The translations under genes and the position numbers were made by a program. From contig OZ026841.1 of NCBI GenBank assembly GCA_964023205.1, positions 32,688,399 through 32,752,398 of the forward strand: 64,000 nucleotides of DNA, given 5' to 3'. Source of the stretch: Lutraria lutraria. Taxonomy: Eukaryota; Mollusca; Bivalvia; Venerida; Mactridae. The notes beneath the pieces were generated by a model. The model searched no databases. It had not been told where the DNA came from and saw nothing but the letters and a program-made list of their open reading frames with translations. Position 1 is the first letter of the stretch, and the number at the start of each line of letters is the position of its first letter. Shown in pieces: positions 8,690 to 63,312 of the stretch.

Positions 8690-9520
8690 GTCACGTGGGT
8701 TGTCCACACTGATAATACAATATCAATGTACAGTTTATCACGTACAGCACGCTTACCTCGCTTCCTTGCATCTAACATCACCGGGATCTATTCACGACGC
8801 CTGTCCTTGACCTCAGCTGGGTACTGCTCAGTGACGTTAAATCCAGTATTACGTAAATTTGCATACTTAAAAGCGTTCTTTATTAGATACTTAGAATCTG
8901 GCTCCAGCCTAGCAACAACAGGACGGACCTTACCGGGAACGTTTCTTCCAACCCTATGAACAGTGATGATCTTAATTTTAGATTCAGCTTCTGGTATTTT
9001 AAGCACACTTTCACAAAATTTGAACACTTTATCGGAGCAATCTTCATGAATGGATTCGGCCTGGGTGCTGGTATGAGCTGCTTCACCACTATTGTCATGA
9101 CTTCCGGTACTCGTGGGGTTGGAGGTCTGATCAATGGAGCCACTAGGAACTGTGTTAAATGTAGGACCTTCAGTTATACAAAAAAAAAGCAGATTGTCCT
9201 TCATAGAGCGACACTTTAGGTCAATAACAGATTCCGTACATGATTGGTAGTCGGACTTGAGTTTTGCATTTTCCTCGGACAAGGTGACTACGTCTGACTG
9301 TAATTTGGAAATATTATCAGCATTTTCTTTGGAACAGACAATAACTTCCTCGTATTTTTCACTAAGGAATTTTTGACTACGCTCAATCGTGTCGATTTTT
9401 TTTCTCCATTGTGTTGAGCCTTTCCGTGATATTGTCCACGCTTGATCTAATTGATTGAGGATGTGAAAGTTTAGAGTCCATTTTGTCAAGACGTTGAATA
9501 ACAGCTTGTAGTGCATCATT
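8690..9520 (-). pseudogene. LINE-B ORF1 (coiled coil plus RNA-binding domain), frameshifted
   Basis: The minus-strand reading frame contains a heptad-rich helical stretch (SEKYEEVIVCSKENADNISK and the following residues), then LKCRSMKDNLLFFCI, the usual RRM entry of LINE ORF1p. After a Ser/Thr/Gly-rich linker come VHRVGRNVPGKVRPVVARL and YPAEVKDRRRE, typical C-terminal landmarks. A stop follows (about 8791). Residues MLDARKRGKRA and RDKLYID continue immediately in a nearby frame to about 8690. A run of A near 9395-9404 shifts the frame so that the upstream part (DKMDSKLSHPQSIRSS-like, 9490-9420) is out of register. Expected role: binding of the element RNA. It is not functional as it stands. 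Confidence 0.7.
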
Positions 9521-9528
9521 ACGTAATA

Positions 9529-9707
9529 GATACAGTACGAGTTTTTCTTCAAAAGTGTCTTCTTACAGACGTAAGAAGACGGTTCGCTTAGATAAACAAC
9601 CAATTTGTCCGAGGCGAAGCCGAGGATAAAATGGTTGTTTGTCTAAGGGAACCGTCTTCTTAGCGTCTGTAAGAAGACAATTTTGAAGAAAATACGAGTA
9701 CGTGTAT
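9529..9707. repeat. Foldback hairpin inside LINE-B copy 2
   Basis: Same hairpin as at 391-569, displaced by exactly 9138 bases, with no difference seen. The arms are about 60-75 bp around a loop with GAGGCGAAGCCGAG. It separates the ORF1 N-terminal segment from the coiled-coil segment of LINE-B. Confidence 0.7.
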
Positions 9708-9779
9708 CTGACTTATACGACGATAAAGGATAATGTCCACGTGAAAGTTGAGTTATTGAAAAGTGTCTTCTTACAAACG

Positions 9780-9971
9780 TTAGAAGACACTTTTTGAATA
9801 GCTCTGCTGGAGGTATAGTCGTATAATAATAGATTGAGACGCACTTGGAGATGTCTGTCCCATGTAATAAGGAGATCCAGCATGAAACATAGGAGGCAAT
9901 ATAAACGACTGACCATGTTGAGGTGTACGCTTTCCGCCATTTATGACCAAATATGACCGTTTAAAATCCAA
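9780..9971 (-). pseudogene. LINE-B ORF1 N-terminal low-complexity segment
   Basis: The minus-strand frame reads GGKRTPQHGQSF, PPMFHAGSPYYMGQTSPSA and then a run of Ile/Leu/Gln residues. Pro/Gln/Ser/Gly-rich disordered N-termini ahead of a coiled coil are usual for LINE ORF1 proteins. The assignment rests on composition and position only. The identical segment is at 642-833. Confidence 0.4.
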
Positions 9972-10465
9972 ATTTAGTCACTCTAAATACAGTTTGCCAA
10001 TGAAAATTAACGAATCATTATTAAGCGTTTTCAAACACGTCCACCATTGACAATCGGAACACCTCGAACAAGGTGATAAGGAAAAGTCGATAAAGGGGTG
10101 CAGTATTTATCGCAATAAAACACCCTTTTTGAGCGTTCGCTTAGAATAATTTGTTGCTTGGTATTAAAGTATGATATTCAATCTTTGTAAATAACGTAAA
10201 ATATCATTTTACGTTATTTAACAGATTATACCTTAAGTTCTTCATTGATTGCTCTTAGAAGAGATATAAGTTAACTTTCCAATTCTTCCAGTCTCTCGAG
10301 TTGTGCTTGAGAGATTTTTTTAATTCATTATTCTTCTATTGAATATCGTTACTTAATTCAGTATCGTAACCTCTACTGACTTCAAGGCCATTGAGTCTTT
10401 ATTTATTTTCACGAGAGTTCAATTCAAGGGATGTAACTCAAGTATCACATGATATCAATTTAGTC

Positions 10466-29322: not shown

Positions 29323-31850
29323 GATATGGTTAAGTATACGTTTTGGAAGTATTTAACGATGGAAAAAAATAAATTTATCCATTTTTTTAAACAATAATTA
29401 GTGTTTAAACTTATACATACGAGCGAAGTTCGTGTCGCTATTCAGGGCCGAAATGGACATTAAGCGACACGAAGTCATAATGCGAATTTAAACTGTTACT
29501 AAGCTTAATTTAAGCATTGATATGGTTAAGTATACGTTTTTGAAGTATTTAGCGATGGAAAAAGATATATTTATCCATTTTTAAAAAGAAAATAATTAGT
29601 GTTTAACTTATACAAACGAGCGTATTTCGTGTCGCTATTCTGGGCAGATGTGAACATGAAGCGTCACGAGAAGATAATGTAGAATAAAACTGTAAGTAAG
29701 CTTAATTTAAGCATTGATATGGTTAAGTATACGTTTTTGAAGTATTTAGCGATGGAAAAAGATATATTTATCCATTTTTAAAAAGAAAAAAATTAGTGTT
29801 TAACTTATACAAACGAGCGTATTTCGTGTCGCTATTCTGGGCAGATGTGAACATGAAGCGTCACGAGAAGATAATGTAGAATAAAACTGTAAGTAAGCTT
29901 AATTTAAGCATTGATATGGTTAAGTATACGTTTTTGAAGTATTTAGCGATGGAAAAAGATATATTTATCCATTTTTTAAAAGAAAATAATTTGTGTTTAA
30001 CTTATACAAACGAGCGTATTTCGTGTCGCTATTCTGGGCAGATGTGAACATGAAGCGTCACGAGAAGATAATGTAGAATAAAACTGTAAGTAAGCTTAAT
30101 TTAAGCATTGATATGGTTAAGTATACGTTTTGGAAGTATTTAACGATGGAAAAAAATAAATTTATCCATTTTTTTAAACAATAATTAGTGTTTAAACTTA
30201 TACATACGAGCGAAGTTCGTGTCGCTATTCAGGGCCGAAATGGACATTAAGCGTCACGAAGTCATAATGCGAATTTAAACTGTTATTAAGCTTAATTTAA
30301 GCATTGATATGGTTAAGTATACGTTTTTGAAGTATTTAGCGATGGAAAAAGATATATTTATCCATTTTTAAAAAGAAAATAATTAGTGTTTAACTTATAC
30401 AAACGAGCGTATTTCGTGTCGCTATTCTGGGCAGATGTGAACATGAAGCGTCACGAGAAGATAATGTAGAATAAAACTGTAAGTAAGCTTAATTTAAGCA
30501 TTGATATGGTTAAGTATACGTTTTTGAAGTATTTAGCGATGGAAAAAGATATATTTATCCATTTTTAAAAAGAAAATAATTTGTGTTTAACTTATACAAA
30601 CGAGCGTATTTCGTGTCGCTATTCTGGGCAGATGTGAACATGAAGCGTCACGAGAAGATAATGTAGAATAAAACTGTAAGTAAGCTTAATTTAAGCATTG
30701 ATATGGTTAAGTATACGTTTTTAAAGTATTTAGCGATGGAAAAAGATATATTTATCCATTTTTTTAAACAATAATTAGTGTTTTAACTTATACAAACGAG
30801 CGTATTTCGTGTCGCTAATCTGGGCTGATGTGAACATGAAGCGTCACGAGAAGATAATGTAGAATAAATATGTAATTAAGCTTAATTTAAGCATTGATAT
30901 GGTTAAGTATACGTTTTTGAAGTATTTAGCGATGGAAAAAGATATATTTATCCATTTTCTTAAACAATAAGTAGTGTTTTAACTTATACATACGAGCGAA
31001 GTTCGTGTCGCTATTCTGGGCCGAAATGGACATTAAGCGTCACGAAGTCATAATGCGTATTTAAACTGTTATTAAGCTTAATTTAAGCATTGATATGGTT
31101 AAGTATACGTTTTTGAAGTATTTAGCGATGGAAAAAGATATATTTATCCATTTTTTTAAACAATAATTAGTGTTTTAACTTATACAAACGAGCGTATTTC
31201 GTGTCGCTAATCTGGGCTGATGTGAACATGAAGCGTCACGAGAAGATAATGTAGAATAAATATGTAATTAAGCTTAATTTAAGCATTGATATGGTTAAGT
31301 ATACGTTTTTGAAGTATTTAGCGATGGAAAAAGATATATTTATCCATTTTTAAAAAGAAAATAATTTGTGTTTAACTTATACAAACGAGCGTATTTCGTG
31401 TCGCTATTCTGGGCAGATGTGAACATGAAGCGTCACGAGAAGATAATGTAGAATAAAACTGTAAGTAAGCTTAATTTAAGCATTGATATGGTTAAGTATA
31501 CGTTTTTGAAGTATTTAGCGATGGAAAAAGATATATTTATCCATTTTCTTAAACAATAAGTAGTGTTTTAACTTATACATACGAGCGAAGTTCGTGTCGC
31601 TATTCTGGGCCGAAATGGACATTAAGCGTCACGAAGTCATAATGCGTATTTAAACTGTTATTAAGCTTAATTTAAGCATTGATATGGTTAAGTATACGTT
31701 TTTGAAGTATTTAGCGATGGAAAAAGATATATTTATCCATTTTTTTAAACAATAATTAGTGTTTTAACTTATACAAACGAGCGTATTTCGTGTCGCTATT
31801 CTGGGCCGAAATGGACATTAAGCGTCACGAGAAGACAATGTAGCATAAAA
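29323..31850 (+). repeat. Left-arm tandem array, 13 units of ~196 bp with higher-order pattern
   Basis: Unit starts (GGTTAAGTATACG) lie near 29328, 29524, 29721, 29918, 30115, 30311, 30508, 30704, 30901, 31097, 31292, 31490 and 31685. Each unit carries CGAGCG(T/A)A(T/G)TTCGTGTCGCTA and GAAGCGTCACGA or TTAAGCG(T/A)CACGA. Two unit types differ after GGGC: type A has AGATGTGAACATGAAGCG and type B has CGAAATGGACATTAAGCG. The order is B A A A B A A A' B A' A B, ending in a B/A hybrid. Type B recurs at about 29440, 30230, 31015 and 31610. Confidence 0.85.
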
Positions 31851-33100
31851 CATCAATAATGCTTAAATTTGTCTTTGTCATCCATGGATATACTTTATTC
31901 TATCAAGTCATTGAATCTATGTTTTTTTTAAATTATTTAGAAGTACTCGAGCGCATTTCAAGAAGTCTTAATGTTGCTTTCGTATATAAGATCGTTAACG
32001 ACTTGACACTTGTAGTTAACATGTGCAGAAACATACCTGCACAATAAGTTCATTTACTTATGATCTCTTTATTTAGCTGTCGGTAATAGTAATGTGATTT
32101 TCGCTTGTTAATATTAACTTTGTTGTTTATAAATAGTTCTATCAACGTAAAACAGCACCTATAGATATATAGAAGTATTTAGTTCAAACATCGATTTTAG
32201 CACGGATTAGCATCAACAGGTTGCTAATTAGTAGGTGATAAACAACGGTCAATATGATATACAGTTGTATATTTTATACTTAACGACTTGACACGTATTG
32301 GTATATATGTATACAATAGAGTTTTAACAATGTACTAACGAGCGTTTTTCGTGTCGCTAATTAGCAAAACTTTAGCAGGATAATATTGAACGATCGTATT
32401 TCGTGTCGCTAATTCGTCGCTACTTCGTAAAATAGATATTTATCAATTTTATAAATTGAGCGTTCAGTTATGACATAATGCAATGTTATTATATGATAAC
32501 TGTATTTGAAATTTAAATATAATCCAAAAATACATGATATCACACTCATTATGTCATATCCAGGCCCCACCACGAGGAGGCGCTCAAATCATGGCCCAAA
32601 AAGGTTATTTTTTGATCGTATTTTCATCTAAATAGTAATTATAGAAAAAATAATTAAATGATCAATTTACTGCTTTAAGTTAACAACTAATTTGTTTGAC
32701 CGGCAACTTTCTGAGTGGTCTAATTGTAATTGTAGAATATAACATAATTTTATAGTATCTTTTTACAAAAATATGAAAATGACAAACACGTATAAATAAA
32801 TACAAACGATTTCATTTAGATAAAAAAAAGAAAAGAAAGACAGTCTGTGAAATTAGCACTTGTCATGTTGTCCGGGACAAGTAAATATTGATTCGGACAA
32901 GTAAATTTTGCGGTATTTATGTATAATTTAAATTATGTATAGAGTATAAAGGAAAACTATTAACTTTTGGTGGTTCGGACAAGTAGTTCCAAATCCTAAA
33001 ATCACAGACTGGAAAGGGATATAACATACACATATAAGAGAAACAGGATTCATTGAGGATGAACAACAACATAAAAAAAATATGAAAAATATAATATGAA
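31851..33100. other. Inner left arm and centre of the foldback element
   Basis: 32090-32420 contains a single reversed copy related to the ~301-bp right-arm unit (AAAACAGCACC, GTTTTAACAATGTACTAACG, AGCGTTTTTCGTGTCGCTAA) and a second CGTATTTCGTGTCGCTAATT. The rest is AT-rich with no open frame of note. GGACAAGTA occurs three times between 32875 and 32990. Confidence 0.5.
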
Positions 33101-34904: not shown

Positions 34905-36380
34905 TTTTACAAATTAGCGACACGAAATAGGCTCGATCTATATTATCATGATAAAATTTTGCTATTTAGCGACACGAAAAACGCTCGTTTGTACATTGTT
35001 AAATCTCTTAATATTGTCCAAATAAAGGATATTTATATGCTGTTTTAATCGATAACTACTTAAAAAAACACGAATTAAGAGATACCCTAGAATATTTCTA
35101 TTCACCGCTGAATACTTCATAAACCTAAAAACATCTATATATTATCGGAAGATTTCTGCATAATATATTACAGTTTAACCTCGTGACGCTTCGAGTTCAA
35201 ATTAGCGACACGAAATACGCTCGTTCTATATTATCATGATAAAATTTTGCTATTTAGCGACACGAAAAACGCTCGTTTGTACATTGTTAAAACTCTTAAT
35301 ATTGTCCAAATAATGGATATTTATATGCTGTTTTAATCGATAACTACTTAAAAAAACACGAATTAAGAGATACCCTAGAATATTTCTATTCACCGCTGAA
35401 TACTTCATAAACCTAAAAACATCTATATATTATCGGAAGATTTCTGCATAATATATTACAGTTTAAATCAACATCATGACCTCGTAACGCTTCGAGTTCA
35501 AATTAGCGACACGAAATACGCTCGTTCTATATTATCATGATAAAAGTTTGCTATTTAGCGACACGAAAAACGCTCGTTTGTACATTGTTAAAACTCTTAA
35601 TATTGTCCAAATAATGGATATTTATATGCTGTTTTAATCGATAACTACTTAAAAAAACACGAATTAAGAGATACCCTAGAATATTTCTATTCACCGCTGA
35701 ATACTTCATAAACCTAAAAACATCTATATATTATCGGAAGATTTCTGCATAATATATTACAGTTTAAATCAACATCATGACCTCGTAACGCTTCGAGTTC
35801 AAATTAGCGACACGAAATACGCTCGTTCTATATTATCATGATAAAAGTTTGCTATTTAGCGACACGAAAAACGCTCGTTTGTACATTGTTAAAACTCTTA
35901 ATATTGTCCAAATAATGGATATTTCTATGCTGTTTTAATCGATAACTACTTAAAAAAACACGAATTAAGAGATACCCTAGAATATTTCTATTCACCGCTG
36001 AATACTTCATAAACCTAAAAACATCTATATATTATCGGAAGATTTCTGCATAATATATTACAGTTTAAATCAACATCATGACCTCGTGACGCTTCGAGTT
36101 CAAATTAGCGACACGAAATATGCTCGTTCTATATTATCATGATAAAATTTTGCTATTTAGCGACACGAAAAACGCTCGTTTGTACATTGTTAAAACTCTT
36201 AATATTGTCCAAATAATGGATATTATATGCTTTTTAATCGATAACTACTTAAAAAAACATAAATTAAGAGATACCCTATAAACCTAAAAACATCTATATA
36301 TTAACGGAAGATTTCTGCATAATATATTACAGTTTAAATCAACATCATGACCTCGTGACGCTTCGAGTCCGACTCGACCC
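34905..36380 (-). repeat. Right-arm tandem array, five units of ~301 bp
   Basis: Units begin at AAATTAGCGACACGAAAT near 34911, 35199, 35500, 35801 and 36102; spacing is 288, then 301, 301 and 301. Each carries two AGCGACACGAAA(A/T)ACGCTCG motifs about 60 bp apart and a CTCGTGACGCTTCGAG or CTCGTAACGCTTCGAG block. The last unit is internally shortened. Copies are nearly identical, so the amplification is recent. The motif runs opposite to that in the left arm. Confidence 0.85.
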
Positions 36381-36980
36381 ATGATAGCGATACGAAATAC
36401 GATCCTACGTTGTAACTATTTTTTGTCACAAAAATACCAAGGAAAATATTTATTTCGCAATTAAATACTTCCAGATTGTATAATTAACTATATATATGCT
36501 TAAATTAAGCATACTACCTATTTTAATCGACATTACTATCTCGTGTCCAACTTGTTCCAGAATAGCGACACGAACTACGCTCGCACGCATAAGTTAAAAT
36601 ATGATTTTCGTCAAAAATACCAATGAAAAAAAAAAATTTCTCATTAAATACTTCTAATTTGTATATTTAACTATGTTTATGCTTAATTTAAGTTTAATTA
36701 CTATTTAAATTGACATTATGATCTTGCGACGCTTCGTGTCCAACTTGGCCCAGAATAGCGACACGAACTACGGTCGCACGTATAAGGTAAAACTATGATT
36801 TTTGTAAAAATACCAACGAAAAATTATTTTTCTTGTCGTTAAATACTTCCAAAACGTATACTTAACCATATCAATGCTTAAATTAAGCTTAATTACAGTT
36901 TAAATAAGCATTATGACCTCGTGACGCTTCGTGTCGCTTCGTGTCGCTAAAATACTTCGTGTCGCTTTTTAGTGAGACCG
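36381..36980 (-). repeat. Right end of the foldback element: three ~190-bp units and terminal repeat
   Basis: Units at about 36384, 36563 and 36752 each begin ATAGCGA(T/C)ACGAA and contain AATACTTC, TTAACTATAT-like text and AAGCTTAATTA. They are the reverse complement of the left-arm 196-bp unit type. The last 100 bp hold CCTCGTGACGCTTCGTGTCG, further CGTGTCGCT copies and the terminus TTTTTAGTGAGACCG, then the GACACTGT duplication. Confidence 0.75.
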
Positions 36981-40101: not shown

Positions 40102-42231
40102 TCAAGGTCCAATGCTGAGTGCATGAATTTTCGTTGACTTATAGGTTGTTATGTAAAGTGTATCATTCTTTGAATTAAATGATGATCGGCTTGGTTTACG
40201 TAGATCGTTAAATTTTTCCTTCTTTATGAATTCACCTTCAGGTGTTAGAACAATGATTTCTCCGTTTATTCGAAAAATGTATATGAACCCACGAGAATCA
40301 GTGGTAATGTTCGCCATACATGAGACATTGTAGCTAAACACAAAGTTCCCTTTAGTGTCGCAACACTTCAATCGACTGAATAGGTCACTGCCGTAGATAA
40401 TACGAAATGTGTCTGATTCGCTTAGATGTTGTATTGCTACAAAATAACAATCGTAAAATCCTTGTACATCGATGGTGTGTAGAAGTGTTCCGTTAACGTG
40501 TAGGATATCCATGTACCATATATCATCTCTATCAGTCATTGTAACTAAAAGTTTATCTTTGCCGAGGGCTCTAACGCATTTGGTGTGATGCCTAGCATTA
40601 ATATAAGTGAAGTCTTTGTGATTAAGGGCCTTAACTTTCACAAACGCTATTCTCCTATCTTTCAACATGCTAACAGCAAAGCGTGCCCTACTAATATTCA
40701 CCAAACATTTCGGCTTAAATGGAGTGAAATGTTCCTTTAACACTTCACCATTTGCACTCAAGATAAGAAACCTCGCATTCTGAGAATCTGAAACTACTAA
40801 ACGACCATCGAATAAGCAGATAATGTCCTCTATTTTCGGCGGAGCAAGCTTGGGCGAAGGAGAAATTTCAAAATTGTTGATGTATGTGAGACACATCACT
40901 CGCTTTTCAAGTTGTTTATCAAGACTAGGTTGTGGATTTGATGTAATAACAGCGCTATGTTGTGTTACGTTTTTCAGATTATTTGTGTTAGACGTAAGAG
41001 ATTTGCTATCTAATTCCTCTTTATCCTCAAAAGCATCCGATGAATATGAAGTGCTTTTTTCTGCCATATATCGTTCACGTAAATTACCGACCGTATCATT
41101 AATCTTTTCATTTGTATTGACGTCAATTGCATTTGACTGCGTAAGTTCGTTTGCGTCACGAAGATCTTTAGTTTTTGATTCTTCAGTAGCAATGTTATTT
41201 CCTTTCTGTTCGATAGACAGTTCTGTTGAATCGCTACTAACTTGGTCCACTGGTGTTTGGCATTCATCAACAATTCTTTTTAAGTCGGTCTTACCGCTAC
41301 CAAATGAAACAGCATGTTCAATTGTTTGTTCAAAGTCAGCCAGTACTGACAATGGCTTTACATGTACTCCCACTTTACTTGTTTTACATCTAAAGAGAGG
41401 TTTGTTACAAGTTTCCAGATTCTCGACAACATTAGACTTTTCAACTACAACCTTTATAACAGCCACGTCTCCTTTAACCGCATCAAAATCTTCAACAAAC
41501 TGTCTGTATTGGTCCTTTATAACGAACGCGCTTCTGAAAAGATCAGCAGAAGATCCACTGTCAGAAAAGAGTTTAGATAACTTATCACATGTTTCAGCCG
41601 AATCCCTTAGTCTTTCTAAAACTTTGATTGTATCCAGACATTTTTCTTCGTGGTATTTATATTGATCTGTTGTTGATGTTTTAATCTGTGATACCTGCAT
41701 TTTAATAACATCAACAAAGTTTTGCAAGCTATCAACAAACACGTCAAGTTGTTCAGACATGTTCTCCATACTCTTCTTCGACTTAGACAATGCAACTTGC
41801 ACACTCTCCACAGCCTGGTCAGACTGTGTAATGGCGTGTTGCATCTCTTTGCTGACTTTGTCTGTGAATCTATTTTCTCTCAGATTTTGACCACCAAAGA
41901 TGATGTCAACTAATTTAGTACATTTACTATGACTATCAGAGAATATCACGCACATGTAACAAATAAATGCTTTGTGGTCATGGCAGTAAAATTCTATCGT
42001 TTTATCATGATACATGCATGTTTGAACTTTTTCCAATTCCTTGTTGAATTTGGATCCAACAAAATCATCACTGGCATCGATGAGGCAATGCTTTCTAGAT
42101 GCTTTACTTGCTTTATGAACTTCAGCACAATCTTTACAGAACGACTCACGACATATGCTACAATATTTACTAGCATTACTGTTAGTCTTGCGATATCTAC
42201 ACGGGTCACAAAACGTTAAACTTGATGCCAT
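40102..42231 (-). CDS. TRIM-like protein: two B-boxes, coiled coil, NHL/propeller-like C-terminus, no RING
   Basis: Single-exon gene of 709 residues. I prefer the ATG at 42231 (context ACAACAATGGCA) over one six codons upstream with T at -3. B-box 1: C8, C11, C24, C27, C32, C35, H39, H48. B-box 2: C72, H75, C83, H86, C91, C94, H101 and C104. Residues about 120-270 are helical with heptad character (coiled coil). A charged, Ser/Asn-rich linker follows to about 440, then a beta-rich region with recurring blocks such as FDGRLVVSDSQNARFLIL and DSRGFIYIFRINGEIIVL, as in NHL/six-bladed propellers. There is no RING before the first B-box, so an E3 ligase role cannot be assumed. Bivalves are known for large families of such B-box/propeller proteins; scaffolding in signalling or immune responses is a family-based guess. 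Confidence 0.85.
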   Translation of the reverse strand: MASSLTFCDPCRYRKTNSNASKYCSICRESFCKDCAEVHKASKASRKHCLIDASDDFVGSKFNKELEKVQTCMYHDKTIEFYCHDHKAFICYMCVIFSDSHSKCTKLVDIIFGGQNLRENRFTDKVSKEMQHAITQSDQAVESVQVALSKSKKSMENMSEQLDVFVDSLQNFVDVIKMQVSQIKTSTTDQYKYHEEKCLDTIKVLERLRDSAETCDKLSKLFSDSGSSADLFRSAFVIKDQYRQFVEDFDAVKGDVAVIKVVVEKSNVVENLETCNKPLFRCKTSKVGVHVKPLSVLADFEQTIEHAVSFGSGKTDLKRIVDECQTPVDQVSSDSTELSIEQKGNNIATEESKTKDLRDANELTQSNAIDVNTNEKINDTVGNLRERYMAEKSTSYSSDAFEDKEELDSKSLTSNTNNLKNVTQHSAVITSNPQPSLDKQLEKRVMCLTYINNFEISPSPKLAPPKIEDIICLFDGRLVVSDSQNARFLILSANGEVLKEHFTPFKPKCLVNISRARFAVSMLKDRRIAFVKVKALNHKDFTYINARHHTKCVRALGKDKLLVTMTDRDDIWYMDILHVNGTLLHTIDVQGFYDCYFVAIQHLSESDTFRIIYGSDLFSRLKCCDTKGNFVFSYNVSCMANITTDSRGFIYIFRINGEIIVLTPEGEFIKKEKFNDLRKPSRSSFNSKNDTLYITTYKSTKIHALSIGP

Positions 42232-42259
42232 TGTTGTTATATATAGCATAAAACCTGTT

Positions 42260-51074: not shown

Positions 51075-54000
51075 GTGCATCTGAAATGAGCGTATCTGTC
51101 GAATGGGTCGTTAAACAACGTTAAACAAAAGGAGAGATACTTGGCACGCGAGAGAAAAGGGCATTCATTGTAAACTTGAGAAGCTTAGCATTTCTTAAAA
51201 CACACGTACGAGTATAAAGATACGTAAACTGACTAAAAAACTAAACAAATTGTAGAATACTAGTAATATACTTTAGAGTTGTATGCATTAGTTCAGTAAT
51301 AATCCTGAAAGCAAGTTACGAAACATATTGCGTTGCTTTGTTTGCAATGTGTTTTGTCTGGCAAGATTCAATACAGTAGAGCATTGTTACTTATCCTACG
51401 TGCAGGTCCGAATCACAAGTAAAGTAACATAGCCAATTTACAAATAAAACTTCGGAGAAGGCTAAGAAAGCGGGATTAGGTTGGCCTTTGACTTGGAGTC
51501 TCCCTGGTCGAGTGTTAATGGTAGCTGACGGAAGGTCGAAGCTTTACCAGATCCAGGGTCTGTTATTTTTCGCAAAATTATTCTCAGAGCTAGAACAGCT
51601 GAAGTTGGGACGTTTGATCCTCAGGAAAAAGACTTATTTATCTCATGTCTTTACAGTAAAACATTTGTAAGAACGTACAATGATGAATCTTTGCTTATTG
51701 TGCACACATAACACCCATTATGTGTACTTCACTATTTGTTTCTGTTCAAAACAGCAGTATATATATTTCGGACACATAATCGTAATTCTCAAGATAATGC
51801 TTAATCGTTCATAGCAGAGGAATGTTGCAATTCGTTATAAATTCTATTCACTGTGTAAAAACTCATGATGATTTCACTGTTTCATTCTCGGTGAATTATA
51901 TTCTGGCATAACATTTGAAACGCAATTCATGTACTGTACTGTGTAAGTAACTTAGAAAATAAGCAAGAAATTGTTGTACCTATCTAACGGGTTGGTTTTT
52001 TGTGATATACTCTAGAAATGTGTTTTTTTTCTGGGTAACGTCGTGCATAAAAAGTTACAATGTCAATAAGATGTTTTGTCTGACACTGATACATGAACAC
52101 AACGTATGAAGCCTTTGCATATAGAACAACGCATAATGATAAATTATCCGCGCAGAATGCGTCCGACGAAATCGTGAAACATCGAGAAGTTCCGGGTATT
52201 TTGTATAACGATTTAATTTCGCAGACTGTTACCATTAAGAAATGCAATTAGGTCGATCATTTGTCTTATTATATTCGTTTTTTGTATTTTTGTAAATCTT
52301 TCTTTTCAGTCCATATTTCGACGCAAATCCAGAAATGTTGAGGGTTATTTTCTTGCCGGCAGGACGATGCCATGGTTTGCTGTAAGTCTGTACACAATTC
52401 ATTTCCTTTTTCATTTCTAAAACTGTATGTACTTAGGATAGCTTCATTGTTTGCGAAAAACTGGTGTATAATACAAGTGTCACGTAATCAACATAGTGTC
52501 CTTCAGATTCCCATCAATGGTTCTTGAAGGTTCTTAAAAAAAGTTCAGAATGATCTCGTATTAATGGTATTAAAATTATGTTTTGTACAAAAGTTACGAA
52601 GCATACCGGATAGCACAGATACATTTTAAAACTCGAGTTATTTGTGTTCTGCATAATAATGTGTCCAATAAACCCATAATCTAAAGATATCGTTCATAAC
52701 AAAAAAATACTGCTATATTTTAATAAATCAAGTTCTACTTTCTACATTAAGATAGAAGAAAAGAAAACATGCAAAACATCCCACCTTCCCAAATAAAGTA
52801 CAACAAAAAAACAATTACCCAAAATCCATCTAAACCAAAACCCACTCTACCCAAAATCCATCATACCCAAAGCCCACTCTACCCAAATCCCGCCCTACCA
52901 ATAACTCGCTCTTCCAAAAACTCGCCCTACCCATAACTGGCCCTACCCAAATATCGCCCTACACAAGACACGCCCTTCCCATAAACCCACCCTACCCAAA
53001 ATCCAAATTACCCATAAACCCACCCTACCCAAAATCCATCTTACCCATAAACCCGCCTATCCAAAATCCATCTTTCCTAAAATCCGCCCTACCCAAAATC
53101 CATCTTACCCAAAATCCGCCCTACCCAAAATCCATCATACACAAATCCAATCTACCCAAAATCCATCTTACCATTAACCCGCCCTACCCAAAATCCATCT
53201 TACCCAAAATCTGCCCTACCCGAAATCCATTTTACCCAAATCCAATCTACCCAAAATCCATCTTACCCAAATCAAATCTACCCAAAATCCATCTTACCCT
53301 AAAACTCGCCCTACCTTAAATCAAATCTACCCAAAACTCACCCTTCCCAAAACTAGCCCTACCCTAAATCCATCCTACCCAACACTCACCCTTTCTAAAA
53401 CTAGCCCTACCCTAAATCCATCTTACCCAAAACTCACCCTTCCCAAAACCCGCCCTACCCTATATCCATCTTACCCAAAACTCACCCCTACCCAAAACCC
53501 TCCCGACCCAAAAAACATCTGACATTAATACTGCAACACATATGAACATACAAAAGGTCAAAACACAGTTTCACAGCCACGTTATACTTCATTAAAAACT
53601 GGAACAAGCAATGTGTTTTTATTTCGAGACATAATTTTGCTTGGCAGAGATTCCAAAGTTCTGCGATTTTCTTCTTATCATTCACCTTCTCCAATGATTG
53701 TATCAGCAGGTACCTATAGTTATATTCGTTCTATCCTATAATCTAGTGCAATTACGGAAATGCGGTGTAACCTATTTTACGAAAGATCTATGTCAATTTG
53801 CACAAACGGTAATCGAAATACAATGAAGTATGAATTGAGATATCAGTTCCATGTGATTAGGACATTCTGAACTTAATGTCTTAATTTTTTTAATTAAGTT
53901 GTCAATGTATCAATCAGTCTGCTAGGCATAGAATTTCTTTTAATAGAAGCGTTTTTTATTGGTCCTGCAGCCTATAAGATTTATTCATAAAACATAAGCA

Positions 54001-57000: not shown

Positions 57001-60000
57001 ACAAATTTGTAGGGCAGAATCCATAACTATTTGTTTTACTGCCTCTGAAAATAATGCAATAATAAAAGCCAAAAAAAAACATCAATACAGCCGCACATTA
57101 AATATCAAAACGTATAAACCATGAACAATTACATTATGCGAAATTCATATACAGTAAATAAGATTAAGAAGGTCACATGATTATAGTTTAGGTCAGAAAT
57201 GTTATTGTATACACGGACGATCCCATTTGTAAAGTGTGAACCATTTTATCTTATTCCAGTCATTTGAATACATAAGATAATCTGCTATGTTATTTTTCTA
57301 CTGTATACACGCCGATTATCTTTTTCTAGACGAATTTTAGTTTAGTTTAGTTTATTCTAGTTGTTTGCGGGTATATCGTATAGTGTCAATTACTAGTTTG
57401 GGTAATCCTGGCCATTTGATTGGTGTCGGTCATTTTGATAGGTCAATCATTGGACTGTCTATTCGTTGCGTAACCTGTCATGTTTTACTGAACCTGTTCG
57501 TCTGCTCTTTTCTTAATAGTTGATAGGTAAGTAAATTATGTAGGCATTGCTCTGTGATGTTGACCTAGACAAGTTGGAAATGCTATTTGAAGTTCAATGT
57601 GGTTGTATCATAGCAGAATTGGTTAACATTTAGGGTTGATTTTATTTGATTGATGTCGGGTATGATATTACCTTACATGTGCTTGTGAACTACATACATG
57701 AATTTATTAATTGTCAAATACTCATGATTGTCAATATATGTGTATATTCATAACATGTAAATATGTTATACTCTCCTTAATGGAGGATTGAATAAAATAG
57801 ACAGTCAATATCATTTATGAAAAAAGCAACTTCATACAAAAAACATAAACCAATGCTTCTTGTAATGCTTCCACCTATATTGTTTCGTTTTTCTTATTAA
57901 AACATATTTCTTGTTTCTCATCACGCCAGTTATACATCATGCATCATGCACGCGATCAGAGAGGTAAATGTATTCTGTATTTTTTTTCTGAACACTCCAG
58001 CAATGCAACAGGCATCATGCATTCGTGAGTCGCGTTTTATGGACCTACATTAATACGAATAACAGTTAAATGCAATCGTGAAACGTCGAACAAATCCGCA
58101 CTCTCCGTAAACATCCGTACTCTATGTGATTTATATGTATTTCATATACTAGTACATTATATACATTTCTATACAAACCACGTCGGGAATAGTCCAAAAC
58201 ATATAACACCTAATTTACTATTATTTTATTTTATTTCCGTCTCATTTATGTACATACTTATAAAATACATCATGTGACAAAACAATTAAAATAAGTACAC
58301 AACCATTCAATCTTGAATTACAAGAGACGCTTGACAAACTTAAAATAATCTGAATAATATAATCATAAATTCATCATATCACTATATAACTGCAATAAAA
58401 TTATTACTAATCACTACTAACAGACAATAAAGACATAGGTAAAGATATGAGACTGCCGTTAATACATTGTATTAAAATAATGCTAAATCATTTATTATTA
58501 AGAAATGGAAATGTGTAAATAGGCACTGATGCGTTAATTAAAAAAAAACGTTAATAAATCATTTATCACCCCGGTCAAACCGTAGATGAACTGATAATCA
58601 ACAGTCTCTTAGATATCAGTAAAACTAGCAAGAATAAATATGGAATTACAAATACATTATTTACATAAATAAAAAAGGCGTCTTTGCAAAATCATAAAAC
58701 AGGTTTTGACACAACTATGTCTCGCCTGTTCGTCACGATACCCACCCCCCACCCCGTGGTTGTATTATAGAGTATATATTGATACAAAAATAAGAGGTGT
58801 GATGATCGCACGTACTATGCCATGTGAATTCAATAAGCGATAATTGCCTCACTTTCAGTGTTTTATATTCACACAATATGCGTGAAAATATAGGTGATAC
58901 AGTAAGGCATTACGCGGAACAAGTTGTTACAACACGTATCTTTTTACTAACTGATACATTGTATGTGAAATGTGTGTTAAAATGATGTAATAGTGTTCGT
59001 GTTCCTTAACGAGTCACGTTGTAATTCATATGATAATAGAATGTTCTTATGCTTTTAGGGTTCTTTTATCCCTTTGAATGGAATCCATAAAAACATGATT
59101 TTTTCTTGCATAGTTCGTGCATAATACATGAAATATGAATACCTTTTGACAGAGGTTAGCGTGTTGTGTCAGATATACTTCAAGCAAGAGCATCACAGAC
59201 ATATAATTGTTTGTAACTAGAATCATTGAAATTAAAGTATAAAAGTTACTCAAGAATAGAAATTATTTGATTACACATATAATGACATATGAAAGGACAT
59301 GGACACGATCAACAGACATTATAGAGTATTAACTTGAAATACCCGCGGAATCAGAACTAAATAACCAACTCGGATGGAAAATACGTGAGATTCGACAATT
59401 TATCATTTTTGCCCGTGAAATGTGCACACACCCTAGATCCTTTTATTTATGTATTTTTCATTGTTGTAATGAATATGTTCCAGGCTTGTGAAAGTATACT
59501 ATTATTTCGTCTATTTAGTTGTGTTAAATAAACACTGACTTATTTTATATAAATAAATGCATGGCGGTGCATCGCTGCAACAATACAGATCGCTTATATA
59601 GTACAATCTCTTCAGAGTGACCCACTCTTGAGCAACAACCATACTTCAACAACAGCCTGATTTTTCCCACAACACGACTTAACTGTTGATTTAACCTCTG
59701 TAGAGCAACAACCTCTCAGCAGCAAAATAATTGTGCTTATCCAAAAGGGTGTTGCTTAACAGAATGATGTTGCAATGCATTGTAAGTCTATAAATAACAT
59801 TATTCAATATATATCATCAATATATCATTGACAACAAGCCTGTTCCGCTGACAATAAGTTCATTTATTAGCGTTCGAGCAAAATTTATATGCTATTTATA
59901 CCATGTAACTAAAACTCTTGCGTTCTTGTTAAAGGTTGGTGCCTCTATCTTTGGCAGCAACATTGGCAGTGAACATTTCATTGGTCTGGCGGGTTCCGGG

Positions 60001-63000
60001 GCTGCGGCAGGCATTGTATTTGTCTTGTTTGAATGGATTGTAAGTATATCATAATTTCATAATATAAAACATGTAATCAATGTACACATGTATTTTAAAG
60101 GCCCCGTAACGAACTGTAAGTCTCAAAGTACTTTTTAATAGCATTGACACCTTAGTCATAGTTTCTTATTATTACCAAGACCTAATTATTGACAGCTTGA
60201 CCCTCAGCCTATATTTTAGGGTTCAGAAGTTTGTCGACCATATTTCCACAAAAGTATTGAGCTGAACGTTTTTTTGATGATATTGCAGACTGACCTATTT
60301 TCAGTTAATTCCTTGTAAGCGCGGCTTCTCCGAATGGTCATGATCTCTATCTTGTAATCACTTGCCCCTCACTACCATTAGTGCTGCCAGCAATGTTGTT
60401 AAATAACCCTATCTGTTGGTGTGACGTTAAACTGTAGTGAAAAATAATACCTGTAGATATCGATGGGTATCTTTTCTGTGTTCTTCTGAGTAACTTTTAA
60501 ATTAATATTTTGCAACTGATTCAATAAGGAAATTGTTACTAAAGTAATTGAATTTTGAATCGTTCACTTCAGCCTGCAATGCTGATTCAACTTTTGTCTT
60601 GGTTTTTCCTGCCGGTATTCATATCAGCTGGGGTAAGTAATATACAAAAAGTGTCAGCTAGGATAAGTCTAATATTAGCTAGGGTAAGTAACATATTAGC
60701 TAGGATAAGTCTTATATTAGCTAGGATAATTCATATATTAGCTAGGATAAGTCTTATAATAGCTAGGATAATTCATATTTTAGCTAGGATAATTCATATA
60801 TTAGCTAGGATAATTCATATATTAGCTAGGATAAGTCTTATATTAGATAGGATAATTCATATATTAGCTAGGATAATTCATATATTAGCTAGGATAATTC
60901 ATATATTAGCTAGGGTAAGTCATATATCAGCTAGGATAAGTCTTATATTAGCTAGGATAAGTCTTATATTAGCTAGGATAAGTCTAATATTAGCTAAGGT
61001 AAGTCATATATTAGCTAGGGTAAGTCATATATTAGCTAAGGTAAGTCATATATTAGCTAAAGTAATTCATATATTAGCTAGGGTAAGTCATATATCAGCT
61101 AGGATAAGTCAAATAATAGCTAGGGTAAGTCTTATATCAGCTAAGATAAGTCATATATTAGCTAGGGTAAGTCATATATTAGCTAAGATAAGTCATATAT
61201 TAGCTAAGGTAAGTCATATATTAGCTAGGGTAAGTCATATATTAGCTAAGGTAAGTCATATATTAGCTAGGGTAAGTCATATATTAGCTAAGGTAAGTCA
61301 TATATTAGCTAAAGTAAGTCATATATTAGCTAGGGTAAGTCATATATCAGCTAGGATAAGTCAAATAATAGCTAGGGTAAGTCATATAATAGCTAGGGTA
61401 AGTCTTATATCAGCTAAGATAAGTCATATAATAGCTAGGGTAAGTCTTATATCAGCTAAGATAAGTCATATATTAGCTAGGGTAAGTCATATATCAGCTA
61501 GGATAAGTCAAATAATAGCTAGGGTAAGTCATATAATAGCTAGGGTAAGTCTTATATCAGCTAAGATAAGTCTAATATTAGCTAGGGTAAGTCATATATT
61601 AGCTGGGATAAGTCTAATATTAGCTAGGGTAAGTCATATATTAGCTAGGGTAAGTCATATATTAGCTAAGGTAAGTCATATATTAGCTAGGGTAAGTAAC
61701 ATATTAGCTAGGGTAAGTCATATATTAGCTAGGATAAGTCTAATATTAGCTAGGGTAAGTCTTATATTAGCTGGTGAAAGTCATACACTAGCTAAGATAA
61801 TTCATATAGTAGCTAGGATAATACATATACATGTATCAGCTAAGATAAGTCTAATATTAGCTAAGGTAAGTCATATATTAGCTAGGATAAGTCTAATATT
61901 AGCTAAGGTAAGTCATATATCAGCTGGTGAAAGTCATACACTAGCTAAGATAATTCATATAGTAGCTAGGATAAGTCATATATTATAGCTAGGGTAAGTC
62001 TTATATCAGCTAGGATAGGTCATATATTAGCTAGGTAAGTCTAATATTAGCTAAGGTAAGTCATATATCAGCTGGAGTAGGTCATACACTAGCTAGGATA
62101 ATTCATATAGTAGCTAGGATAAGTCATACATCATCTAGGATAAGTCATATACTAGTATTAGCTAAGGTAAGTCATATATCAGCTAGGGTTAGTCATAAAT
62201 CATCTAGGATAATTCATATATCAGCTAGGGTAAGTCATACATCATCTAGGATAAGTCTTATATCAGCTAGGGTGAATCATACATCATCTAGGATAAGTCA
62301 TATACTAGTAATAGCTAAGGTAAGTCATATATTAGCTAAGGTAAGTCATATACATTTGTATTAGCTAAGGTAAGTCATATATTAGCTAGTATAGGTCATA
62401 TATTAGCTAGGGTAAGTCTAATATTAGCTAAGGTAAGTCATATATTAGCTGGAGTAGGTCACACACTAGCTAGGATAATTCATTTAATAACTAGGATAAG
62501 TCATGCATCAGCTAATATAAGTCACACACGATTAGAAAGTTAACAGTGAAAATGCTGAATAAACAATAAGACACAATAGCTGTATAAATAAAAGAGTAAT
62601 AACTAATAAAACTACTCTTTAAAGCTGGTATTCAGATCCAGATTCTGCACAGCTTCTACTAACTGAACAGATAAAAGCTCACTAATAACCAAAAAAGTAG
62701 ATTGTTCGCTTTCTGACATACCAGCTGTCTAATATCATACGATGAAAAGTACTTCCTATGTGAGTGACTAACTACTAGTATGCCATGCATTACAGTACAG
62801 TGCATTATATTTTCTTAACCTTTTTTCAATATTTCTAGGTATATACACTTCCAGAATACATGCAAAAACGTTTTGGCAGAGAAAGATTACGAATCTACCT
62901 CAGTGTACTGGCGCTGTTCCTACATATTGTCACACGCCTTTCGGTAAGTTTCCGTCAGTCTGACTACGTCAGTAATTTCCGACAGTGAGACTTAGAAATA

Positions 63001-63312
63001 CAAGTTACTATAGATAACGTTTTGATTGTATTTTAGTATGTAAAAAAGACTACTGCCAAGGGACTGATTCTTTTTGGCGTTTTGGCCTAATTCGATGACC
63101 TAATTTGATATTTCCACGGTTGCACATAGAAAAAAGCTCGTGGTGTATTTTTCCACTTTACAGAGCATACATTAAGGCGATATCACATTTTTATTATTCG
63201 TTTCAGGCAACAATATTTTCCGGAGCAATCTACATACAACTTGCCTTGAACTGGAACATGTACCCTTCTATAATAGGGCTTCTGTTTATCACAGCAATAT
63301 TTACGATTCTAG
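49497..63312 (+). CDS. SLC5-family sodium/solute cotransporter (SGLT/SMIT-like), N-terminal six exons, continues past window
   Basis: Plasma-membrane Na+-coupled symporter of the sodium:solute symporter (LeuT-fold) family. Exons: 49497-49580, 52310-52381, 59935-60039, 60573-60632, 62839-62943, 63207-63312. All have AG acceptors and GT donors; the first five end in phase 0 and the sixth in phase 1. Together they give 177 residues: TM0 ([17 protein letters not shown]), [11 protein letters not shown], the hallmark [17 protein letters not shown], a membrane segment ending [18 protein letters not shown], and two further membrane segments ending at the start of a GG motif. [13 protein letters not shown] is closest to what I know of myo-inositol/glucose transporters (SLC5A3/9/11 type), but substrate cannot be fixed without the later exons. 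An in-frame TGA at 49476 supports the ATG chosen. Introns are full of repeats, and intron 4 holds the 21-bp donor-site array. Confidence 0.85.
50064..50200 (+). mobile_element. tRNA-like SINE remnant in SLC5 intron 1
   Basis: CTCCATGATCGAGTGGTTAA fits a tRNA D-arm and A-box. AGCTGGCTTCAAATCAC fits an anticodon arm. No good B-box survives. The layout matches the common bivalve SINE head I know from memory. Confidence 0.4.
50655..50942 (-). repeat. Right arm of an inverted dispersed repeat (partner 46415-46730)
   Basis: Reverse-complement copy of 46415-46730, with several substitutions and small indels. The two arms lie on either side of SLC5 exon 1. This arm is inside intron 1. Confidence 0.7.
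51024..51071. repeat. (TC)n microsatellite
   Basis: About 24 TC dinucleotides without interruption. The Glu-Arg open frame across it on the other strand is an artefact of the repeat. Confidence 0.9.
52310..52381 (+). CDS. SLC5-like exon 2 (GYFLAGR)
   Basis: 24 codons between TTTCTTTTCAG and GTAAGT. Encodes [14 protein letters not shown], the loop and start of TM1 conserved in SLC5 proteins. Confidence 0.85.
52790..53520. repeat. C-rich, G-poor degenerate tandem tract in SLC5 intron 2
   Basis: Repeats of CCCAAAATCCATCTTAC and (A/C)CCCGCCCTAC with a 15-18 bp rhythm. The plus strand has almost no G for about 700 bases, so the minus strand carries GGG or GGGCGGG runs every 8-20 bases. Confidence 0.8.
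54115..54690. mobile_element. TTAA-flanked MITE, 568 bp, in SLC5 intron 2
   Basis: TTAA at 54115-54118 and 54687-54690 flank inverted ends AGGGGCATGCCC(T/A)GGAACTG (about 20 bp, one mismatch). TTAA target sites are typical of piggyBac- and Kolobok-type DNA transposons. No coding sequence inside. Confidence 0.8.
56350..56545. repeat. ~105-bp tandem duplication in SLC5 intron 2
   Basis: TACCTAGTGTT(G/A)AAAAA, GTAGTGACCGGAAACC or GCAGTGACCGGAAACC, and a TTGGAACCCTGCA / TTGTAACCCTACA end occur twice at about 105 bp spacing. Confidence 0.6.
57325..57865 (+). repeat. Dispersed repeat, copy 2, in SLC5 intron 2
   Basis: Direct-orientation partner of 39087-39540, with extra internal sequence (a GTTTAGTTTA stretch near the start and about 60 bp around 57430-57520). 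It contains a TAGGTAAGT donor-like site that is not used by the exons seen here. Confidence 0.65.
59600..59765. repeat. Dispersed repeat AGCAACAACCTCTC, copy 1 (SLC5 intron 2)
   Basis: TCTTGAGCAACAAC, CAACAGC(C)TGATTTTTCC, AGAGCAACAACCTCTCA and AAAGGGTGTTGCT are shared in order with 63827-64000. The repeat lies about 170 bp before exon 3. Confidence 0.6.
59935..60039 (+). CDS. SLC5-like exon 3 ([16 protein letters not shown] core)
   Basis: 35 codons. TM1 region with the substrate- and sodium-site Asn/His pair in SNIGSEHF and the family signature [11 protein letters not shown]. The donor is GTAAGT. Confidence 0.9.
60320..60437 (+). mobile_element. SINE remnant in SLC5 intron 3
   Basis: TCTCCGAATGGTCATGATCT is an A-box-like head. 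TTGTAATCACTTGCCCCTCA follows, and the stretch ends TCTGTTGGTGTGACGTTAAA, which I know as a common tail of bivalve SINEs. Decayed; no B-box. Confidence 0.35.
60573..60632 (+). CDS. SLC5-like exon 4 (ends at the donor that seeds the 21-bp array)
   Basis: 20 codons after a TTCACTTCAG acceptor: membrane segment [20 protein letters not shown]. The donor GTAAGT at 60633 directly starts the minisatellite. The exon frame stays open through the repeat to 61988. Confidence 0.85.
60633..62528 (+). repeat. 21-bp minisatellite of splice-donor-like units filling SLC5 intron 4
   Basis: Consensus AGCTAGGGTAAGTCATATATT, about 85-90 copies. It starts at the exon 4 donor, whose own sequence (CATATCAGCTGGGGTAAGT) matches the unit closely, so the array seems to be an expansion of that junction. 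Variants are AGCTAAGGTAAGT, AGCTAGGATAAGT, ATCAGCT and ATAATT. Within the open part (to 61988) I count about 30 exact GTAAGT cores after AGG or AAG. Units after about 61988 are out of frame with the earlier ones because of small indels. The array stops about 310 bp before exon 5. Confidence 0.9.
62839..62943 (+). CDS. SLC5-like exon 5 ([11 protein letters not shown])
   Basis: 35 codons between ATTTCTAG and GTAAGT. Encodes the conserved (M/L)PEY-x3-RFG motif and the following membrane segment [16 protein letters not shown]. Confidence 0.9.
63207..63312 (+). CDS. SLC5-like exon 6
   Basis: 35 codons plus one base after a CGTTTCAG acceptor. Encodes [17 protein letters not shown] and a membrane segment ending AIFTIL plus the first base of a Gly codon, as expected before the GG motif. 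The donor is GTATGA. Confidence 0.85.

Follow-up and report, generated by a model that had tools for sequence, protein, structure and literature searches.

Why should most of an intron consist of apparent copies of its own 5' splice site? The question is raised by a 64,000-nucleotide stretch of DNA from the bivalve Lutraria lutraria (contig OZ026841.1, positions 32,688,399 to 32,752,398), which was analysed as a whole and is here called the window. The features on which the answer depends are the following.

59935..60039, plus strand: exon 3 of the SLC5 gene, donor ATT/GTAAGT, from the protein-guided model.
60573..60632, plus strand: exon 4 of the SGLT4-like SLC5 gene, 60 nt, the likely source of the repeat unit's 12 exonic bases, which read ATATCAGCTGGG here.
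60633..60638, plus strand: true 5' splice donor GGG/GTAAGT, placed by the gap-free join of exons 3-6 to SGLT1 and ungapped in the listed relatives.
60656-62524, plus strand: 21-bp minisatellite in intron 4, 88 copies, consensus ATATTAGCTAGGGTAAGTCAT.
60684..60689, plus strand: first intact competitor donor, AGG/GTAAGT, at +51 from the true donor; its use would add 17 residues.
62839..62943, plus strand: exon 5 of the SLC5 gene, acceptor TTTCTAG at 62832-62838.
63207..63312, plus strand: exon 6 of the SLC5 gene, donor TAG/GTATGA, from the protein-guided model.

The host is an SLC5 gene, as indicated by a match of exons 3-6 alone to the Pfam family SSF with 122.2 bits against a cut-off of 22.8. 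Exon boundaries at 60632/60633 and, for the acceptor, at 62838/62839 were taken from a protein-guided gene model, and the alignment of the joined exons 3-6 with SGLT1 is gap-free and covers 126 of 126 residues. Across exons 3-6 and the 3' end of exon 2, the window gene is 95% identical to an SGLT4 of Mactra antiquata; over the same span, SGLT4-like proteins reach 91-95% identity in Mactra antiquata, Mercenaria mercenaria and Ruditapes philippinarum and 87% in Mya arenaria. Set beside other SGLT/SLC5 sodium-sugar symporters, the compared coding exons (end of exon 2 to exon 6) held nothing unusual that we noticed. Intron 2 of the same gene carries a second array, at 52816-53513, with 43.6 copies of a 16-bp unit (TACCCAAAACCCACCC). 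This array starts 434 bp past the exon 2 donor, and by eye its unit is unlike the exon 2 junction.

The original prediction had placed a 21-bp array of about 85-90 copies at the exon 4/intron 4 junction, and two counts bear this out. TRF finds a period of 21 bp in 87.7 copies, with 81% matches and a score of 2085, and a fuzzy count yields 88 copies besides the true donor. The array makes up 1,869 bp (85%) of the 2,206-bp intron. Its first copy is spaced 30 bases from the true donor, not 21, and all copies as far as 61963 are in phase 0, so that the phase foreseen for the first 1.36 kb is indeed kept to that point. Mean identity to the consensus, taken per quarter from 5' to 3', is 0.90, 0.92, 0.88 and 0.85, the 3' half being more diverged than the 5' half. 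Identity between copies peaks at distances of two and seven units.

Did this array grow out of the functional exon 4 donor, as had been proposed? The junction 18-mer, ATATCAGCTGGGGTAAGT, which comprises 12 exonic and 6 intronic bases, agrees with the best array copy at 17 of 18 positions, whereas the closest 18-mers to any copy in the rest of the window, both strands included, reach 15 of 18 (one place on the plus strand and two on the minus strand). The proposed origin is well supported. For the array consensus, mismatches to the junction number 2 over 18 positions and 3 over 21; individual copies agree with the junction at between 13 and 19 of 21. Among the five exon ends in view, the likeness is confined to the end of exon 4; the other four differ from any copy at 6-8 of 12 and 8-9 of 18 positions. 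Two copies (61921 and 62069), both in the 3' half of the array, retain the exon 11-mer ATATCAGCTGG. Gapped local alignment of the junction with the array extends over 25 bases, 22 of them identical, and scores 35 against a best of 31 in 2,576 control tiles, a weaker test with modest separation.

An array that came from elsewhere, as a genomic satellite or mobile element whose likeness to the exon is due to chance or later conversion, is very unlikely. The match falls exactly on the junction that adjoins the array, and the closeness of the 12 exonic bases to the copies, within one mismatch, recurs at only 2 of 124,142 other 12-mers in the window. Moreover, the exon end was probably not copied from the array, because the residues that it encodes are shared with relatives: the 13-residue segment at the exon end does not vary among the Mactra, Mercenaria, Ruditapes and Mya proteins. 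Among the 120 listed relatives of 3,668 matches, the exon 4/5 join (of the type ISAG/VYTLPEY) is uninterrupted, none of the 120 has a gap within 8 columns of it and 108 have AG or SG before it, although this insert-free join has no bearing on the isoforms of L. lutraria. Exons 4 and 5 are also joined directly in a 94% identical protein (P0003), the source of which is presumably a transcript, since 657 aa are encoded on a contig of only 2,633 bases. The exon end is uninterrupted in these relatives, and the junction is therefore the most likely source of the array; judged from these alignments, the exon 4 end probably predates the array that derives from it. No exact match to a 26-base piece of the array turned up in viral or prokaryote contigs, a result that is expected for animal sequence and carries little weight.

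We consider it likely, then, that the exon 4/intron 4 donor was repeatedly duplicated in tandem to form the array, with splicing predicted to occur mainly at 60633 and the +51 copy as the sole likely competitor. A short segment over the junction would have been duplicated by slippage, and one variant, with an exonic G to A change giving GCTAGG, would have spread through further slippage. The copies would then have drifted, and variants may have spread in blocks, as the identity peaks 2 and 7 units apart suggest.

How many of the copies could still act as donors? GT is kept in 45 of 88 copies and the full GTAAGT in 40, and the 43 copies with no GT read AT (41) or GA (2). The change from G to A at +1, which abolishes the donor, is the most frequent one among copies, and column +1 has the highest entropy (1.00, with 47 G and 41 A), followed by columns at 0.98 and 0.95. 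The description of the intron as largely donor sites was thus overstated. Immediately before GTAAGT, the 40 copies have AGG (24), AAG (14), TAG (1) or AAA (1). Duplexes were computed with the U1 5' end, giving -9.7 kcal/mol for AGG/GTAAGT, -10.3 for AAG/GTAAGT, -10.2 for TAG/GTAAGT and -5.3 for the AAA copy, compared with -10.0 for the true GGG/GTAAGT and -11.8 for the ideal CAG/GTAAGT. The claim that many copies match or exceed a consensus U1 site is therefore not borne out in that form. In all, 39 copies lie within 0.3 kcal/mol of the true donor's computed pairing. Strong donors number 39 on the plus strand of the 1,869-base array, whereas the remaining 62 kb, with both strands counted, have 12, a density in the array about 200-fold that of the rest of the window.

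These figures bear on a rival explanation, that donor competition is real and dose-dependent, with many copies used and array length either setting the isoform mix or lowering the amount of correct mRNA. The 39 copies whose computed U1 pairing matches that of the true donor to within 0.3 kcal/mol or better speak for it, as does the lower activity reported for human CBS with more 31-bp repeats at its exon 13/intron 13 boundary (PMC5188458). Nevertheless, this explanation is unlikely: GT has been lost in about half of the copies, and 282 nt separate the true donor from its second GT competitor. GT copies stand at +51, +282 and +366 relative to the true donor and then further out, only one GT being near the true site.

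Splicing likely keeps the true donor, because that donor bounds the normal 60-nt exon. Exon definition would hold donor choice near this exon, since an exon of at least 342 nt would result from every GT copy except that at +51. Use of +51 would give an exon of 111 nt, and from its near-equal U1 strength and this normal exon size a minor isoform longer by 17 residues is predicted. In our reading of repeated donor duplication, the array is most likely a nearly neutral, junction-seeded minisatellite, beside which the true donor is expected to prevail, some leakage to +51 being possible.

Crude tests on the copies (rotations, column entropies and copy trees) gave no sign of selection for or against donors. 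On the copy trees, some 10 changes fall in the +1 column, compared with 18 in the -2 column and 12 in the last, so that donors appear neither retained nor lost in excess. The original prediction had suggested that such an intron could tune splicing by copy number; nothing in the sequence points to selection for this. The first 12 copies include a single GT. Depletion of donors beside the true site was considered and is not significant, 7 of 88 rotations being as low (6 to 12 of 88 over six stretch lengths).

Structural masking of the copies was rejected as well: in predicted folds, 28 of 88 copies are more accessible than the true donor, and the true site and its copies are not told apart by predicted accessibility. 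Long imperfect hairpins are predicted for array RNA at 61012-61311. This 300-nt segment has a z of -3.65, with 0 of 200 dinucleotide shuffles as stable, and its stability is probably due to the self-complementary TTAGCTAA in the unit. A protein might mask donors. The hexamer UAGGGU is given as a high-affinity hnRNP A1 site of mammals (PMC1379639; PMC9457596). It lies across the donor in 24 of the 40 GTAAGT copies and is absent from the other 16 (14 AAG, 1 TAG and 1 AAA), while the true donor reads TGGGGT and is without it. By analogy with the mammalian motif, it is possible that hnRNP A1-type sites would further mask these 24 copies in the mollusc.

What would use of a copy mean for the protein? 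Inserts in multiples of seven residues had been expected, which proves wrong: because the first copy sits 30 rather than 21 bases from the true donor, GTAAGT copies up to 61837 are predicted to insert 17+7k residues. After a 6-base insertion at 61837, two copies would give 19+7k. The insert would be in phase and stop-free for 30 of the 40 GTAAGT copies, and the other 10 would introduce a stop; hence leaky use would likely give a longer transporter and not a nonsense-decayed mRNA. One could imagine a splicing rheostat, in which nearby intact donors, hnRNP A1-type masking sites and a variable array length together set how frequently a 17+7k insert is gained before the conserved TLPEY loop, but we hold this to be quite unlikely.

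The array might instead be a translated alternative extension of exon 4 that adds heptad repeats to the transporter. What invites this reading is one further feature.

60573..61985, plus strand: open frame extending exon 4 across the array, 471 aa.

Such openness is expected as long as the period of 21 holds, because, read in that frame, the consensus unit contains no stop. Copy comparison gave no sign of coding constraint on the 471 residues: codon differences in 63 copies comprise 111 non-synonymous and 3 synonymous changes, with a one-step expectation of 47 to 14, the counts being linked by shared descent and so not independent. Variability is lowest at third codon positions (mean entropy 0.27, compared with 0.50 and 0.58 at the other two). 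Of the 7,995 candidates scored, none was a homolog of the peptide at E <= 0.001. With differences almost all non-synonymous and third positions least variable, a coding array was rejected, and a translated extension is exceedingly improbable. The array peptide does match DUF948 and Seryl_tRNA_N above their whole-protein Pfam cut-offs, with no stretch significant alone, and has four further Pfam matches below the cut-offs; all were set aside as chance hits of low complexity.

Are minisatellites of this sort known elsewhere? At the exon 2 boundary of human IFI6 there is a repeat with a 12-bp unit, a donor minisatellite reportedly described in a 1995 study (Nucleic Acids Res 23:1854). Its units supply splice donors, and two downstream units are described as used (PMC4526556). 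The resemblance to the clam is that tandem units carry splice donors in both. However, IFI6 is a human interferon-induced gene with a different unit, whereas the clam array has 88 units of 21 bp, about half of them without GT, and its donors are predicted ones. A second human case is the 31-bp VNTR of CBS, the original paper on which is said to be Lievers et al. 2001. This repeat, c.1444_1467+7(16_21), lies at the exon 13/intron 13 junction, its name implying a unit of 24 exonic and 7 intronic bases; it is variable in copy number, and lower enzyme activity is reported with more repeats (PMC2630376, PMC5188458, PMC1395315; activity, PMC5188458). The CBS unit lies over an exon/intron junction like that of the clam, but CBS has 16-21 copies where the clam has 88, and 31 is not a multiple of 3 whereas 21 is. 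Since the clam repeat unit spans an exon/intron junction and units carry potential donors (GT in 45 of 88), the array is, by analogy, of the same kind as the IFI6 and CBS minisatellites, and a larger case.

Intron gain is a different matter. In the potato RdRp gene, tandem duplication across an exon/intron boundary copies splice signals (PMC4974935). There, a new intron results, whereas in the clam an existing intron seems to have been lengthened: duplication did not supply both donor and acceptor, the intron ending at 62838, outside the array, in the gene model. A limited literature search turned up no bivalve precedent for such an array. Junction minisatellites of the human IFI6/CBS kind would extend to a bivalve, at a copy number far above that of CBS. 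The locus would also serve as a natural experiment on how a 5' splice site is chosen, with 39 donors of near-equal computed U1 strength, most of them in phase, following one true donor in a single intron. Exclusive use of the true donor would mean that context and not U1 pairing decides; if others are used, repeat length would change the protein.

Other repeats were seen elsewhere in the window. Positions 1-1327 and 9139-10465 form a direct repeat with 100% identity over 1,327 bases, cut by the window start, and retroelement-like ORFs were read by eye between its two parts; the pair may stem from recent duplication, from a long terminal repeat or from overlap in the assembly. Arrays at 29323-31851, 34910-36278 and 36541-36935 have periods of 197, 301 and 195 bp, and by eye their consensus units have TCGTGTCGCT or its complement in common. 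The first and last of these match at 74-78% in inverted orientation. On the minus strand, 40105-42258 encodes a 718-aa protein with a B-box match of 23.8 bits, just under the Pfam cut-off of 24.1; it is 68% identical to one relative and 43% identical to a Mactra antiquata protein.
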